A stretch of 64,000 bases of DNA from Hirschia maritima DSM 19733 (GTDB taxonomy: Bacteria; Pseudomonadota; Alphaproteobacteria; Caulobacterales; Hyphomonadaceae), in assembly GCF_000378345.1 (NCBI RefSeq), contig NZ_KB899545.1, forward strand, positions 1 through 64,000, in the 5' to 3' direction. Position numbers and translations under genes: made by a program. Numbering within the stretch: the stretch's first letter is position 1; each line of letters begins with the position of its first letter. The notes beneath the pieces were generated by a model. It worked only from the letters and a program-made list of their open reading frames with translations. It was not told the DNA's origin and did no database searches. Shown piece after piece: positions 12,566 to 25,311 of the stretch.

Positions 12566-12575
12566 GGGGGGGGGG
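12566..12575 (+). repeat. G10 homopolymer in the ribosome binding site of the lyase gene
   Basis: Ten consecutive G bases end two bases before the ATG at 12578 and must serve as its Shine-Dalgarno region. Homopolymers of this length change by slippage, so the spacing between the binding site and start codon may vary between cells. Confidence 0.7.
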
Positions 12576-12577
12576 CG

Positions 12578-15331
12578 ATGAATATCAGTCCTATTTTTTG
12601 TAATTTTCTTCGAGCTTCAGCTGTTTTTTCTTTAGTTGCAGGCTCCACTTTATTAAGTTCTGCATCTGCTGATGCAATATTGTTTAATGACACACCTATG
12701 GGTAATGCAGGGTATTGGAATAATTCAACAGTATCTGCGAGTGGTGACCCAACATACAATGGGAGTGTTTCATCAATTAAAATGGTGCTTCCTTCTTGGG
12801 ATACTAAAGGTTTAGCTTTTGTTCGGGATGTTAATACAGATCAACGAATTCTCAGCTTTTGGCTCTACAAACCTACAAATGGCAATGGTCATATATCTCT
12901 TAGTCATGGCTCTAACTACACAACCATATTGTTAGGTAGCGATAATCAGCCTCACTGGCGTGCGAATGGCAGTACTGTTTCAGGCTTGGCCGATCTTGCA
13001 GCAAATCAATGGCATCAAATAGAAGTTGATTTAGAGGCACTAAATATATCCAGTTTTCGAGCAATTGGTGTGAAAGCAAATGGAACAAGTGGGCTAAGCT
13101 ATTTCATGGATGAAGTAGTGTTATCGGATGATTGGTCAGGTGGGCAACCGGCTCCACCACCGCCACCGCCATCCAGTGATAACCTGTTGTACAATGGCTC
13201 ATTTGAATATGATGATATTGGGTATGGAGAATGGGACCCGGTAACTTCATTGACTGGTTGGTCAGCGATATCTGGTGGTCAAATTGAGTTATGGGATCAC
13301 GCCATGGCCGGAATTGAGCCAACAGATGGTAGCCAAAATATTGAGTTGGATGTTTTAAGCAATAGAGATGGTTTGTATCAAAATGTTCAAACTAACAATG
13401 ATGCATCATACACTATTAGCTTAGATGCTCGTTTAAGGCCTGGAACAGATTCGTCTTCCCAGAGTGTCGAGATATTGTGGAATAATGCAAAAGTCGGGGA
13501 GTTCGTTCCGACTTCCAATTGGGTAACATATACATTCTCTGTGACCGGCACAGGAGCTCAAGATGAGCTAACAATTCAAGAATTGTCTTCGCAATCTCAA
13601 GATGGTAGGGGGGCGATTATTGACAATATTCAATTAATTGAGAGTGACACACCTGAGCCTATTATTCCTCCACCTCCATTGCCTGGCTCAACAACAGTTT
13701 TGTTCAATGATACACCTATGGGTAATGCGGGTTATTGGAATAATTCAACAGTATCTGCGAATGGTGACCCAACATACAATGGGAGTGTTTCATCAATTAA
13801 GATGGTGCTTCCCTCTTGGAATACTAAAGGTTTAGCTTTTGTTCGTGAGGTTAATACAGATCAACGTTATATGAGCTTTTGGCTTTACAAGCCAGTAAAT
13901 GGAAATGGTCAAATATCTTTGAGCCATGGAGCTGCATATTCGACCATATTATTGGGCAGTAATAATCAATCTCATTGGCGTGCCAATGGAAATACTATTT
14001 CAGGATTAGTTGATCTTGCAGCGGATCAATGGCACCAGATAGAGATCGATTTGGGAGCTTTGAATATATCTAGTTTCCGCGCAGTGGGTATCAAAGCAAA
14101 TGGTGCGAGCGGTCTCACTTACTTCATGGATGAGGTTGTGCTGTCAGATGGTTGGTCTGGTGGTCAGCCACCACCACCTCCGCCACCACCTCCGCCGCCG
14201 CCACCTCCGCCGCCGCCACCTCCGCCGCCGCCACCTCCGCCGCCGCCACCGAGTGGACAAAATTATGGCATCCATTCGGCCGCCGAAGTGCAGCAGGCTC
14301 TTGCAAATCTTTCTACGTCTGCGGGACAGGCTGCTCTTGCTGAAGTAAAAAGTGTGGCAGATGATTCTTATTCCAAATGGTTAGCAAATGGAAATGGAAG
14401 CATTCCTCAAGAGTTGAATATCGAACCCTTCTATGACAATCCGGAGCTGTCTAGACAGCAGTCAGAGCTTGTTGATAATAGTGGGAATACAGCATATTTT
14501 TCAGCAGTTTATTGGTTGATGACGGGAGATAACGCTTACGCAAGTCGAGCAGTTTCAGTTATGAACGAATGGGCTCAGGAAAATAGGGGAGCAACTAATA
14601 ATCAAGCACATCTTGTAATGTGCGTAAAAGGTGTGGGATTGCTAATGGCAGCCAATATCTTAAAAGATTATAATGGTTGGTATGCTTCCGATCGAAGTGC
14701 CTTTGCGGACTGGGTTTCCAACTATTATATTCCCTCTACTGATAATGAGATACAGGGGCAGTATAATAACGTCCACAGTGGAAATAACAGAAAGAACTGG
14801 GGGATGTTTGGAAAGTCAAATGCATTAGTCTATTTGGAACGAGACTTGGGAGAGATTATTAGCATTATCCCAAGCACTATCACGCATCAAATTTCAGGTC
14901 ATGCCGCTACACTTGGTCGGCATAACATTGAGTATACGCGGAAAGATACCGGTGAAAGAGGATTGTGGTACACGAATTTTTCATTGTCGCCATTAATGGG
15001 AACAATCCATTTGATTTACAATGAAACTGGTCAAAACCTGGTAGACCATTGCTTCTATCCTGGGGATTGCGTGCGTCCTCGATTGGTGGAAGCTGTGCGT
15101 AAATTGTATAACTACAATACCAACCGATCTTGGCCTTATAATACAGATGAAGTCAACAATCCTACATTTTATGGTGAGGGGGATGGTTGGCCATACAATT
15201 TGACCGACGCAATGGAATTCTACTTTGGCGAAGAGTTTGGAGATGCAGGGCCGCCTCGCCCGTTGACTTCAACAGGTGACCATATGGCGTGGGGGGTGAC
15301 TTCATTGATCCCGCCCATAACACCTGAATAA
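12578..15331 (+). CDS. Secreted multidomain alginate-lyase-family enzyme
   Basis: A 917-residue secreted protein. Residues 1-32 are a Sec signal peptide. Two near-identical beta-sandwich-like modules (about 35-190 and 375-530) flank a different carbohydrate-binding-like module (about 200-360, beginning LLYNGSFEYDD). A run of 28 prolines (531-558) links them to the C-terminal catalytic domain (about 562-917). That domain resembles the alginate lyase family (PF05426): NNVHSGNNRKNWGMFGK and HAATLGRHNIEYTRKDTGERGLWYTNFSLSPL carry the expected Asn/His/Arg/Tyr residues. It would bind and cleave alginate or a related polyuronate outside the cell. The exact substrate and lyase family are not certain. 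It stands alone, followed by a strong terminator. Confidence 0.8.
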   Translation: MNISPIFCNFLRASAVFSLVAGSTLLSSASADAILFNDTPMGNAGYWNNSTVSASGDPTYNGSVSSIKMVLPSWDTKGLAFVRDVNTDQRILSFWLYKPTNGNGHISLSHGSNYTTILLGSDNQPHWRANGSTVSGLADLAANQWHQIEVDLEALNISSFRAIGVKANGTSGLSYFMDEVVLSDDWSGGQPAPPPPPPSSDNLLYNGSFEYDDIGYGEWDPVTSLTGWSAISGGQIELWDHAMAGIEPTDGSQNIELDVLSNRDGLYQNVQTNNDASYTISLDARLRPGTDSSSQSVEILWNNAKVGEFVPTSNWVTYTFSVTGTGAQDELTIQELSSQSQDGRGAIIDNIQLIESDTPEPIIPPPPLPGSTTVLFNDTPMGNAGYWNNSTVSANGDPTYNGSVSSIKMVLPSWNTKGLAFVREVNTDQRYMSFWLYKPVNGNGQISLSHGAAYSTILLGSNNQSHWRANGNTISGLVDLAADQWHQIEIDLGALNISSFRAVGIKANGASGLTYFMDEVVLSDGWSGGQPPPPPPPPPPPPPPPPPPPPPPPPPPPPSGQNYGIHSAAEVQQALANLSTSAGQAALAEVKSVADDSYSKWLANGNGSIPQELNIEPFYDNPELSRQQSELVDNSGNTAYFSAVYWLMTGDNAYASRAVSVMNEWAQENRGATNNQAHLVMCVKGVGLLMAANILKDYNGWYASDRSAFADWVSNYYIPSTDNEIQGQYNNVHSGNNRKNWGMFGKSNALVYLERDLGEIISIIPSTITHQISGHAATLGRHNIEYTRKDTGERGLWYTNFSLSPLMGTIHLIYNETGQNLVDHCFYPGDCVRPRLVEAVRKLYNYNTNRSWPYNTDEVNNPTFYGEGDGWPYNLTDAMEFYFGEEFGDAGPPRPLTSTGDHMAWGVTSLIPPITPE
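12680..13143 (+). repeat. Intragenic 464-bp repeat, copy 1
   Basis: Encodes the first N-terminal module of the lyase. The second copy is offset by exactly 1020 bases; stretches such as GTGACCCAACATACAATGGG are identical in both, with mostly synonymous changes elsewhere. The near-identity indicates recent duplication or gene conversion. Confidence 0.85.
13700..14163 (+). repeat. Intragenic 464-bp repeat, copy 2
   Basis: Second copy of the module at 12680-13143, directly repeated without length change. Recombination between copies would delete 1020 bases (340 codons) in frame. Confidence 0.85.
14168..14251 (+). repeat. 15-bp minisatellite encoding polyproline
   Basis: Twenty-eight proline codons in a row. 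Most of the tract is four tandem copies of CCTCCGCCGCCGCCA, preceded by degenerate units. The repeat keeps frame when unit number changes, so linker length can vary. Confidence 0.9.
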
Positions 15332-18623: not shown

Positions 18624-19457
18624 TCAGGAAGATGTCACAGCTTCCATCTGTTCTGCAAGCCAATTAGGTGAAATTAATTCAGCTTTTTTACCATTTGCTG
18701 TAATCTCAGGTTTTCCCGTAGATTGAGCTTTTGCAAGGCGGTCAATTCTCAATTTCGCAAGTGCATAATCTGACGTCGAAGAGCTGACTTCGCCTATTGT
18801 TTTTCCTTCAATTTCAAGTGGGGTTCCAGCCTGCGGAGCGCCATTAGGAAAATGAAAGGAGAGGGTACGCCTTCTCGCGGTTCCTCTTCTTTTCATACGA
18901 GAAACGACTTCTTGGCCAATGAAACAACCTTTTTTGAAATCTATGCCATCATTTATATCCATATTGACGTCAGCTGGAAAAACTTCATTTTCGCCAAAAT
19001 CTTTGCCTTGTTCAGCTATGCCAAGTTTTGTTCGTTCTACATGATAAGTTTTGCATGAAGTGTCTTCGTATAGCCCTTTTTCGGAAATCATCCTTTTAGG
19101 CATATTGGGATGGCGAGGGTCACTTAAGCCATCATTTACAAAGGCATACACGGCTAGGTCATCACGAAGAGATATTTCGACATTTGCTTTTAATTTGAAC
19201 ATTTTTAGGCGTTTAAGCAGCGCTTCATCCGCTTGAATTGGAACATCAAGGAGAAAGCCAGTTTCCGTTCTCTGCAAGATGATATCGCAAATTATTTTGC
19301 CTTGCGGTGTTAGGAGAGCTCCATAACCGAGCTGATCATTTTTTAGATCAACAATAGTGTTTGTGAGAAGACCATTTAGGAAAGTGGCCGAGTCGGCTCC
19401 GTCTACACAGAGGACAACACGGTTATCGAGATGGATAGGATTGCTCATATGCTGCAT
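18624..19457 (-). CDS. ygfZ: Folate-binding protein YgfZ
   Basis: The 277-residue protein belongs to the GcvT-like YgfZ family, which uses folate to support iron-sulfur enzymes such as tRNA-modifying MiaB. The family hallmark K-x-G-C-[FY]-x-G-Q-E is present as FKKGCFIGQEVVSRMKRRG. The N-terminal half contains NGLLTNTIVDL and GYGALLTPQGKIICDIIL, also typical. A start at the second ATG (19448, MSNPIHL) is equally possible. First gene of the ygfZ-tag-lipoprotein run; a probable small RNA starts about 175 bases upstream on the other strand. Confidence 0.92.
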   Translation of the reverse strand: MQHMSNPIHLDNRVVLCVDGADSATFLNGLLTNTIVDLKNDQLGYGALLTPQGKIICDIILQRTETGFLLDVPIQADEALLKRLKMFKLKANVEISLRDDLAVYAFVNDGLSDPRHPNMPKRMISEKGLYEDTSCKTYHVERTKLGIAEQGKDFGENEVFPADVNMDINDGIDFKKGCFIGQEVVSRMKRRGTARRRTLSFHFPNGAPQAGTPLEIEGKTIGEVSSSTSDYALAKLRIDRLAKAQSTGKPEITANGKKAELISPNWLAEQMEAVTSS

Positions 19458-19602: not shown

Positions 19603-19628
19603 GGAATTGTCTTGGCGTGTTTTACGTT
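19603..19628 (+). promoter_or_regulatory. EcfG-type general stress promoter
   Basis: GGAAT at 19603-19607 and CGTT at 19625-19628 with a 17-base spacer match the alphaproteobacterial EcfG/SigT consensus GGAAC-N16/17-CGTT at all but one base. No plus-strand protein gene follows; the structured region at about 19635-19740 does. No sigma factor is encoded in this window. Confidence 0.62.
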
Positions 19629-19634
19629 GCGGCG

Positions 19635-19742
19635 ATATCTCCTTGCTGTGCCGTTATCCCCAGAACGCTGTGGCACAGCAGATCCAGTGCCTGTTCCAAT
19701 ACATCCCCCCTAGATTGTAGCAGGTTACTGGGTCAGCTTTCT
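19635..19742 (+). ncRNA. Probable small regulatory RNA with two C-rich hairpin loops
   Basis: Starting about 7 bases after an EcfG-type promoter, the sequence folds by eye into two hairpins. Hairpin 1 (19644-19680): TGCTGTGCC pairs with GGCACAGCA, with an inner GTT/AAC and loop ATCCCCAG. Hairpin 2 (19681-19734): GATCCAGT pairs with ACTGGGTC (one G-U), then CCTG/CAGG and CAAT/ATTG, with a loop containing CCCCCC. The 5' leader has TCTCCTT, also complementary to ribosome binding sites. Exposed C-rich loops under a stress sigma factor recall GsrN of Caulobacter; homology is not shown. The 3' end overlaps the end of the convergent kinase gene. Ends are approximate. Confidence 0.6.
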
Positions 19743-21577
19743 GCATTGGCGATTGATTGGGGAGTATTCTGTTTCTTTCGTTGGTTCTTTTTCTCAAAAC
19801 GAATAAGAACAGTGCTTAACGCGGCCATCAGGTTTCGCGTTTCAATGGGCTTTGAAACAACGCCGCATATTCCAGCTTTATAGTATTGTTCTATTTGTTC
19901 TGGAGCTACGTTTGCTGTAACGGCGAGGATCGGGATATCTGCATTGTCGGAATCTAGTTTCCTGATGATTTTAGTCGTTTCAACACCACTAATTCCCGGC
20001 ATCATAATATCTACAAGGATTGCGTCATATGAGCGGTGTGAGCTGCAAAGTTTTATCGCTTGCTCACCATTCATTGCGACATCGACGTTGAATCCTTGCT
20101 CGGAAAGTAGGACATTCAATATTCTCAAATTTGCAGGATGGTCATCGACACATAATACTCTGCGTTTTCCTGCGGTAATCAGTTGTTTCTCGTTGTTTTC
20201 GATTGGTTCCGCAAATGGTGCCTCAAATGTAAAAAGGAAATGTGCACCGGGAGCAGGGCGTTCTAGAAGTTCAATGTCTCCATTCATTTTTTGAGCTATT
20301 AGACGAGAAACATGGAGCCCAAAGCGCTTTAGGGATGAAAATTCGATGGATGGAGTTTTATTATCTGGTGCAAATAGTTTCTGCCGCAATTCCGATTTTA
20401 TGCCCGGGCTAGAATCAGACACAAGCAATCTTACAAGAGCTTTGTTTCCCGCTGACGGAGAAGAACATCTCACATCTATTATAACTCCACCTTTGGCAGT
20501 TGATTGAATAGCGTTGGATAAAAGGTTGTTGATGATTTGTTGTGTGCGCGCTGGGTCAATCATGATATCAGCACTGCACTGTTCATCATGGTTTAGACTA
20601 ATATACAGCTCCTTATCATCAGCATGACCTTTCCATAATAAAATGGACCGCTGAACTAGTTCCAAAATGCTTGTAGGCGTAGGTGAAAGTTTAAGTTGAT
20701 TGTTTTCAATGTTTGACATGTCAAGAAGATCATCCAATTGATTGGATAGTTCTCTCGCTGCATCGCGTATCATGTCCATCATGCCAGTTTTGGATTTGGA
20801 GTCTGCTGAAGATTCCAATATTTCGATAGAACCAATTATTGCATTCATTGGTGTTCTTAGTTCGTGACTGGCCATTGCAAGAAAATTGCGTCTTTCCTGA
20901 CTTACATTGATGAGTTTTTCTTTCTGTGAGGCCAGCAGATTATTCTGAATTTTCTGACTTGTTTTGAACGTCAACGTGATTGCGCCGACATGTACGAGAT
21001 TGATGCAAAGAATGAGAAAACTCAGATAAGCATAGTCTTTAGGGGGGAGTGTTGTTGGAGTACCCCAATATCCAGTCACACAAATAGAAATCACAATGAA
21101 AGTGATCACCGTCGAAATCAGCCCCATAAACAGTCTCAATTTCGAGTTAGCCATCACAATCGTCAGCAATATTGGGAATAGAAAAGAAGCTGAGTAGGTG
21201 ATCTGACCAGCACAATGAAATGCTGTTTCCGCAATAGAATATAAAGTTATCAGAATGGCTATCGGGGCTGGCCAAGCGGCGGTGGGCCAACGAATTAATG
21301 ACAAAGCACAAGCGGAATTCACTAATGCGCTGAAAGCCATTACCTGCTTACAAGAGAGAGGAACATTCTCAAAATTGAAAGCAATTATCGCGCTAAAGAT
21401 TGAAGACAAAGCCAACAATAGGACGAAGTATGCATCGGTAATTTTTGAGTGGTCTTTAGAAGAGCTTGGAACAATGCGAGATTTTTTGAAAAGATATCGC
21501 AAGAGGAAGTTTACCTGTTCTTTATTAGAACGGTCTTGAGCATAGTTGTCTTTAGAATATGAGCTATCCTGTGCCAC
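19733..21577 (-). CDS. Hybrid sensor histidine kinase/response regulator
   Basis: The 614-residue protein has five to six membrane helices (about 48-200), a HisKA domain with phospho-His 238 in ASHELRTPMNAIIGS, an ATPase domain (N box NNLLSNAIQST about 350-360; G2-like FGLHVSRLIAQKMNG about 419-433) and a C-terminal receiver domain (about 472-600) with VDD and the phosphoacceptor Asp 523 in LVDIMMPG. The G1 box reads DSSPGI, less canonical than DTGIGI. There is no separate periplasmic sensor, so the signal is probably sensed in the membrane. The start is a GTG without a clear ribosome binding site. No output domain is fused; a phosphorelay partner must be elsewhere. Confidence 0.88.
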   Translation of the reverse strand: MAQDSSYSKDNYAQDRSNKEQVNFLLRYLFKKSRIVPSSSKDHSKITDAYFVLLLALSSIFSAIIAFNFENVPLSCKQVMAFSALVNSACALSLIRWPTAAWPAPIAILITLYSIAETAFHCAGQITYSASFLFPILLTIVMANSKLRLFMGLISTVITFIVISICVTGYWGTPTTLPPKDYAYLSFLILCINLVHVGAITLTFKTSQKIQNNLLASQKEKLINVSQERRNFLAMASHELRTPMNAIIGSIEILESSADSKSKTGMMDMIRDAARELSNQLDDLLDMSNIENNQLKLSPTPTSILELVQRSILLWKGHADDKELYISLNHDEQCSADIMIDPARTQQIINNLLSNAIQSTAKGGVIIDVRCSSPSAGNKALVRLLVSDSSPGIKSELRQKLFAPDNKTPSIEFSSLKRFGLHVSRLIAQKMNGDIELLERPAPGAHFLFTFEAPFAEPIENNEKQLITAGKRRVLCVDDHPANLRILNVLLSEQGFNVDVAMNGEQAIKLCSSHRSYDAILVDIMMPGISGVETTKIIRKLDSDNADIPILAVTANVAPEQIEQYYKAGICGVVSKPIETRNLMAALSTVLIRFEKKNQRKKQNTPQSIANAES

Positions 21578-24293: not shown

Positions 24294-24315
24294 TTATTTT
24301 TTTTGGGGGGGAGAC

Positions 24316-25311
24316 ATGTTTGGTCTTTTTAATCGTGGAAAGCGACCTGAGTTAAAGCCCATAGATTGGCATCCCAAGTTGGATGAAGCACTCCTATATT
24401 GGAACAAGGGAGAGTGGAGTAAATTATCTGATTTACTCGCGAATCTCTCTAACAATAGCCAATTTTCGCTTCTTCAGTCTATAGGGAACAATAGCGAACT
24501 TGATGTTATTGTAGGAAAATTTCCCGATACACCGTTTGCGTATACAATATTGGGTGCTGTTCAAGTTATGTGGGCTTGGAGGCATCGAGGGTTTGGTCGT
24601 GGAAACGAAGTTGACGATGAAAGATGGGAGCCTTTCTTCAATAATTTGGTCAAAGCGTATAACAACCTTTTGCAATCAATTGAGCTTCAGCCAGAAAATT
24701 CGGTTGCGTATTCTTATTTTATACGTGCCGCAACCGGATTGGGTGATGATTATTCAGTTGAGATTGAGCCATCAGCACGGAAATTGTTACAGTTGAAAGA
24801 CCCGCCCATGGAAGGCTTGTGTTTTGCTATGCAGGCGCTCAGCCCCAAATGGCACGGTGATCTTGAAACAATGTATGGGTACGTCGCTGCTGTAGAAAGA
24901 CAAAAAGAAATCCATCCCTCAAGATTGTCATTGATTGCACGTGCCCAGATAGAGAATTGGCTTTGGGAGGTATTTAGAGAAGAGGATGAAGAAAAAGATC
25001 TAAAAACTGATTTTTACTTCACACAAAGTCAGGTCGTTGAAAAAATTGTGCAGGCAAATCAAAAATTCAATGACGAAATGATAGCGAATAAGTCCTCGCA
25101 AAAAGATGAAGCAGCAATATGGTTCGCTCACAATAATTTAGGGTGTGCTTTGTATCGTGCTGGGCAATACAAATTGGCAGCGGCACATATTGACGCCCTC
25201 CAAGACCACCCAGGGGAGTGGCCGTGGGTTTATAATATGGGGAGTCCAGTTGCTCCCTCTTGGCCGGACTTACGTAAACAGGTTGGATTATCCAAATACA
25301 TCACTCCTTGA
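24316..25311 (+). CDS. Unknown cytoplasmic protein with TPR-like helices
   Basis: A 331-residue protein starting just after a G7 run plus GAGA, a strong if unusual ribosome binding site. There is no signal peptide. The chain is alpha-helical, with TPR-like segments (AYNNLLQSIELQPENSVAYSYFIRAATGLG about 120-147; WFAHNNLGCALYRAGQYKLAAAHIDAL about 275-300). I do not recognise a named family. It follows the hydroxyacid dehydrogenase by 22 bases and is probably in the same operon. Confidence 0.72.
   Translation: MFGLFNRGKRPELKPIDWHPKLDEALLYWNKGEWSKLSDLLANLSNNSQFSLLQSIGNNSELDVIVGKFPDTPFAYTILGAVQVMWAWRHRGFGRGNEVDDERWEPFFNNLVKAYNNLLQSIELQPENSVAYSYFIRAATGLGDDYSVEIEPSARKLLQLKDPPMEGLCFAMQALSPKWHGDLETMYGYVAAVERQKEIHPSRLSLIARAQIENWLWEVFREEDEEKDLKTDFYFTQSQVVEKIVQANQKFNDEMIANKSSQKDEAAIWFAHNNLGCALYRAGQYKLAAAHIDALQDHPGEWPWVYNMGSPVAPSWPDLRKQVGLSKYITP

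Follow-up and report, generated by a model that had tools for sequence, protein, structure and literature searches.

Alphaproteobacterial small RNAs with the CCUCCUCCC anti-Shine-Dalgarno motif carry a C-rich loop motif that is complementary to ribosome-binding sites. Among Actinobacteria, the 6C RNA is described as widespread; it is compact and has two hairpins with C-rich loops (PMC6582537). GsrN of Caulobacter crescentus is described as a small RNA whose transcription needs SigT and whose exposed C-rich loop was proposed to pair with G-rich mRNA. BLASTn homologs are reported only within the Caulobacteraceae, and gsrN is usually placed near the ecfG-nepR-phyR locus, C. crescentus itself excepted (PMC5869019). 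RepG of Helicobacter pylori is described as a small RNA whose target is the G-repeat of an mRNA leader (PMC8295292).

Here we analysed a locus of Hirschia maritima DSM 19733 with two such loops. The window, i.e. the whole stretch of DNA analysed, comprises 64,000 nucleotides (contig NZ_KB899545.1, positions 1 to 64,000). An initial annotation had proposed a GsrN-like small RNA under EcfG/SigT control. The features of the window that are discussed below are the following:

18624..19457, minus strand: ygfZ-like folate-binding protein, pointing away from the RNA
19603..19628, plus strand: GGAAT-N17-CGTT, proposed as an EcfG promoter, probably matching by chance
19638..19644, plus strand: TCTCCTT, proposed as a third C-rich stretch, not part of the conserved block
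19644..19680, plus strand: hairpin 1, 10 pairs, loop with TTATCCCCA (19654-19662) and a C-run at 19658-19661
19681..19734, plus strand: hairpin 2, 19 pairs, loop ACATCCCCCCTAG with a C-run at 19705-19710
19733..21577, minus strand: hybrid histidine kinase (HisKA, HATPase_c, receiver), convergent with the RNA, with an ortholog at the same place in the sister species
24316..25311, plus strand: 331-aa protein without a Pfam match, TTTTTTTTGGGGGGGAGAC ahead of its start; candidate target, a lead only

The gene order in the window is ygfZ (minus), RNA (plus), kinase (minus), DUF2385 protein (minus) and a 148-residue protein (plus). Folding of the plus strand of 19640-19738 gave -40.8 kcal/mol, compared to -24.7 kcal/mol (SD 2.6) for dinucleotide shuffles (z -6.19), and none of 200 shuffles was as good. 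The minus strand reached -30.1 kcal/mol (z -0.39), and 65 of 200 shuffles folded as well. A gap between the strands is expected, since the G-U pairs of the stems are present on one strand only. The two hairpins are real and lie on the plus strand, and the two stable tandem hairpins proposed initially were thus borne out. The C-rich loops were likewise found where they had been proposed, as ATCCCC (C-run 19658-19661) and ACATCCCCCC (C-run 19705-19710). The placement opposite the 3' end of the kinase gene held only in part: hairpin 2 overlaps the kinase by its stop codon only, and the element is almost wholly intergenic. Plus-strand open reading frames of 33, 37 and 88 codons that span the element were not kept as open frames in the sister species. 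A coding function was rejected, as the best tblastn match there to the 88-codon frame (E 0.001) contained stops.

We compared the locus with a sister species (G001), which is placed in the same genus as the window's genome (G000), as is a third genome (G002). A DNA similarity search of 61 genomes, comprising G000 and 60 relatives, found no copy besides that of the window. A contig search with the neighbouring DUF2385 protein gave no match, near records possibly lying outside the search set. The G001 copy was found by its position. It has the same two-hairpin design, lies upstream of ygfZ and adjoins the orthologous kinase, with the gene order ygfZ (minus), ion channel (plus), RNA (plus), kinase (minus), DUF2385-like protein (minus) and 148-residue protein (plus). 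The ion-channel gene between ygfZ and the RNA (L004 2435-3271) is absent from the window. Since the two flanking kinases are only 49% identical, unconstrained DNA at this place should have diverged far. Folding of the G001 copy gave z -5.87 on the plus strand and z -2.26 on the minus strand.

So that the search would not be circular, a covariance model (R2) was derived only from the copy in the window. In a search of 75 sources (541,771 bases) it detected the G001 copy with 37.4 bits (E 2.9e-5; present in two overlapping loci), and the next-best matches scored 17.1 and 16.5 bits. In the two-row alignment 57 of 58 cells were paired, with 5 two-sided changes, 6 one-sided changes, 1 broken pair and 17 unchanged pairs. 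All 10 pairs of hairpin 1 were kept in G001, 4 of them by a two-sided and 2 by a one-sided change. Hairpin 2 had 37 of 38 cells paired over both species, with 1 two-sided and 4 one-sided changes. The compensatory stem changes that the initial annotation had expected in relatives were therefore seen in the one relative found. As a control, sliding the partners by 1-3 columns reduced pairing to 27.6-40.4%, with 0-1 two-sided changes. Column shuffling is a weak control for an alignment of two rows; of 500 shuffles, 54 attained the covariation score and 41 the percentage paired. Such shuffles often reach the scores when only two sequences are available, and covariation alone is thus not conclusive.

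The loops were conserved together with the stems. The 9-mer TTATCCCCA of loop 1 is identical in G001, and the C-run of loop 2 is kept, with 6 C in the window and 7 C in G001. Local alignment of the element scored 44, compared to 18.7 (SD 2.9, maximum 35) for 500 mononucleotide shuffles. The upstream flank scored 18 against 20.0 (SD 3.6) for shuffles, and the downstream flank 22 against 18.3 (SD 3.1). Loops and pairing are kept, the flanks are not, and the conserved block stops at the hairpins. The element is a structured plus-strand RNA sequence that is conserved in the sister species. The TCTCCTT stretch, initially counted as a third C-rich part in the leader, is present at 19638-19644 and falls outside the conserved block. 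Past hairpin 2, both species have a run of G (GGGG at 19759-19762 of the window, GGGGGG at L004 3474-3479 of G001) with which the C-loops of the same RNA could pair; the flank in which it lies is itself unconserved.

The arrangement of the two loops is rare. We scanned 464 kb of G000 (the window and a further 400 kb) as well as 400 kb of G001 for a run of at least four C followed by at least six C within about 60 nt. On the plus strand this occurred at one place per species, which was the element, with the starts of the C-runs 47 nt apart in both. On the minus strand, the G000 stretch contained 2 such places and the G001 stretch none. Plus-strand runs of at least six C numbered 8 and 5 in these stretches, and outside called open reading frames there was one per species, namely loop 2 of the element. 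Runs of at least six G on the same strand were more frequent than runs of at least six C (45 versus 8 in G000:C2:1-464000; 32 versus 5 in G001:C1:1190001-1590000), and the scanned stretches showed a GC skew of about 0.10-0.11 alongside this strand bias.

A second model (R1) built from both copies was run over 398 genomes of the order, the own genome included, with strict filters under which weak matches are lost. Two strong matches resulted, G000 and G001, and the 396 other genomes gave no convincing copy with these filters. Matches in G374 and G385 at 22 bits were judged to be chance, as the element's own reverse complement reached 21.3 bits. Laxer filters on 39 genomes returned the two known copies only, and G002, of the same genus, was without a copy. 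The outer-stem pattern of hairpin 2 was found in 75 stretches, and in 3 stretches of viral contigs. The best R1 score among the 75 was 22.5 bits, about that of the reverse complement, and these were also judged to be chance. None of the 4227 families of Rfam 15 reached its gathering score in the window, and none matched the element of either species at E values up to 10. A literature search for Hirschia baltica and small RNA found no paper. Within what could be searched, the RNA is restricted to part of one genus.

We consider it probable, with moderate confidence, that the RNA is a narrowly distributed, trans-acting C-loop small RNA whose loops pair with G-rich ribosome-binding sites. It would be a plus-strand non-coding RNA of about 95-110 nt with two tandem hairpins, the stems of which would display two C-rich seed loops, one with AUCCCC and one with 6-7 consecutive C. 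This role of the loops is suggested by analogy, since AUCCCC and C6-7 loops on stiff stems resemble those of known C-loop small RNAs. In trans, the loops would pair with mRNAs at G-tracts or at G-rich ribosome-binding sites, and this pairing would lower translation or, in some cases, expose it. We infer that the RNA has its own transcription, that the loops are its active part and that G-rich start regions are its targets. Against this reading, G002 is without a copy, and neither a sigma-70-type promoter nor an intrinsic terminator was found in either species.

Candidate targets were sought in the window by calculating loop duplexes with the start regions of 52 ATG-start open reading frames. 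The best two were the gene at 24316 (TTTTTTTTGGGGGGGAGACATG, -20.4 kcal/mol), 4.6 kb from the RNA, and the gene at 12578 (-19.8 kcal/mol), whose start region has ten G ahead of CGATG. The G10 tract (12566-12575) lies directly ahead of the start of an alginate-lyase-like gene and the G7 tract (24305-24311) directly ahead of that of the gene without a Pfam match; both are candidates for slippage-type variation. Conservation of G-tracts was evaluated with 281 ortholog pairs of the shared region, of which 245 were used and 36, lacking a usable start codon, were set aside. At least five G ahead of the start in both species was found only for the 24316 gene (0.03 expected, permutation p 0.03, in a test chosen after the window was seen), and the protein is only 44% identical to its G001 ortholog. 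At least four G in both species was seen in 9 pairs versus 1.8 expected, an excess that may reflect only ordinary Shine-Dalgarno conservation. The kinase beside the RNA has a G5 start region in G001 and none in the window. At loosely defined start-region positions, runs of at least six G numbered 12 of 53 (G000, 464 kb) and 4 of 37 (G001, 400 kb), and no enrichment is claimed. Because a C6 loop fits any G-run, target pairing is generic, and the 24316 gene is a lead, not a proof.

Several other readings of the element were weighed against a trans-acting RNA. It could consist of structured 3'-UTR hairpins at the end of convergent transcripts, stopping or protecting an RNA or binding a protein, with no free small RNA. 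In favour of this, the element is located where the convergent kinase gene ends in both species, and in G001 it starts about 100 nt past the stop of the plus-strand ion-channel gene. However, ygfZ of the window points away, so that no annotated plus-strand mRNA would end there, and structure and loops are kept regardless. A terminator signature was also not found: a search for an intrinsic terminator (stem followed by a T-run) gave 0 hits in either species, and hairpin 2 of the window is followed only by AGCTTTCT. Moreover, a plain terminator needs neither C-runs nor a conserved TTATCCCCA. Altogether we regard 3'-UTR hairpins as unlikely. More doubtful still is a cis-antisense RNA with the 3' end of the kinase transcript as its target. 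It would account for the same position beside an orthologous kinase in both species, and without a terminator the transcript would enter the kinase gene. Against this, hairpin 2 reaches the stop codon only, the model match in G001 ends 47 nt short of the kinase stop, and an RNA of this type needs no conserved loops.

The GsrN-type general-stress RNA transcribed by EcfG/SigT, as put forward in the initial annotation, has in its favour a GGAAT-N17-CGTT box at a plausible distance ahead of hairpin 1, and an exposed C-rich loop; GsrN is described as sigT-dependent with a 5' C-rich loop (PMC5869019). The box is indeed present at 19603-19628, but as an EcfG/SigT promoter it did not stand: GGAAY-N16/17-CGTT occurred once in the window versus 1.96 expected, one or more matches were present in 89 of 100 shuffles, and the box lies in the unconserved flank. 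In a genome of moderately high AT content, such a match does not justify an EcfG assignment. A search of 3.8 kb around the G001 copy found no GGAA[CT]-N15-19-CGTT, though G001 has the sigma factor. A scan for sigma-70-type promoters accepted none in either species. By eye, TTGCCT-N17-TGTAAT is seen upstream of the box in the window, which the promoter scan did not accept.

We then compared the general stress genes. G001 has PhyR (NCBIfam NF006623, 360.6 bits, cut-off 240; also PhyR_sigma2 and PhyR_sigma-like), NepR (54.5 bits, Pfam cut-off 25.7), an EcfG-like ECF sigma factor between NepR and the kinase, and a PhyK-like kinase, all at one locus. The kinase scored below the cut-off of the PhyK model, and the name EcfG for the sigma factor rests on its place and on the boxes. 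This locus (G001:C1:2185364-2187078) served for comparison with the window's genome. It lies at 2.185 Mb and the RNA at 1.217 Mb, about 0.97 Mb apart. The boxes at the stress locus are GGAAC-N16-CGTT and not GGAAT-N17, with 8 in 17 kb versus 0.2 expected. Genome-wide, GGAAC-N16-CGTT occurred 17, 25 and 38 times in G000, G001 and G002, versus 43, 54 and 59 for the reversed control. The motif is unenriched in all three genomes, a lone match therefore means little, and only the cluster at the G001 stress locus stands out. G002 has the sigma factor (63%) and PhyR (64%). In the window's genome, the G001 EcfG query found only other ECF sigma factors with 26-29% identity, the G001 PhyR query found only receiver-domain matches (residues 118-252 of 261), and the NepR model found nothing. 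The genome is 99.71% complete in 10 contigs; an assembly gap hiding ecfG, nepR and phyR is unlikely. Anchored on lipB, the 17-kb stretch of G001 was aligned with a 19.9-kb stretch of G000. Matches were confined to one end of the G001 stretch, namely to lipB, an adjacent 90-residue open reading frame and a carboxylase gene, and a loss is thus not shown as a clean deletion. These searches suggest that the window's species lacks the general stress core (EcfG, NepR, PhyR) that its close relative G001 has.

EcfG control was consequently rejected, and kinship with GsrN is not supported. The box is at chance level, EcfG, PhyR and NepR were not found in the genome that has it, and the G001 copy is without a box in a species whose stress-locus boxes are of the other type. 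With a box in the species without a detectable EcfG, and no box at the copy in the species with EcfG, control by EcfG fails as an explanation. A GsrN-type RNA under this sigma factor is highly improbable and the proposal is largely refuted; the RNA's promoter is probably not an EcfG promoter. A minus-strand RNA that binds a CsrA-like protein, for which the loop regions would read GGGGAUA and GGGGGGAUG and thus bear GGA, was dismissed as equally improbable because it folds little beyond shuffles (z -0.39 in the window, -2.26 in G001).

The favoured trans-acting RNA can be extended, quite speculatively, to a genus-specific global riboregulator. Its twin C-loops might tune genes with G-tracts (24316 with G7, 12578 with G10), slippage of the tracts might set the strength of the response, and the RNA might have been kept in a lineage in which one species lost the general stress response. 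We hold this broader scenario to be doubtful.

Compared with the known systems, the element is like GsrN in being alphaproteobacterial and in having an exposed C-rich loop in the predicted folds of both species. It differs from GsrN, as compared by description, in its two C-loop hairpins, in that EcfG was not found and in the lack of a box at the G001 copy. Unlike gsrN, the RNA gene is not near ecfG-nepR-phyR in G001, and that locus was not found in the window's genome. Further marks of GsrN are a stable 5' isoform formed by processing and the activation of katG. From the CCUCCUCCC small RNAs it differs in its motif, which is AUCCCC and C6-7 here, and in matching no family. With the 6C RNA it shares two hairpins with C-rich loops, loop 1 here having only four C. 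The 6C RNA is reported as common in Actinobacteria, whereas this element was found in two genomes of one genus and matched no Rfam family; the 6C RNA was presumably among the Rfam 15 families scanned. RepG belongs to a different phylum and is likened by description; targeting of G-repeats is a possible common mechanism, for which the genes named above are candidate targets. The design is as in 6C RNA or RepG, without detected kinship. The RNA is ordinary in kind and new as a family, and for one alphaproteobacterial genus it represents a candidate RNA family whose strand, structure and conserved loops are backed by evidence.
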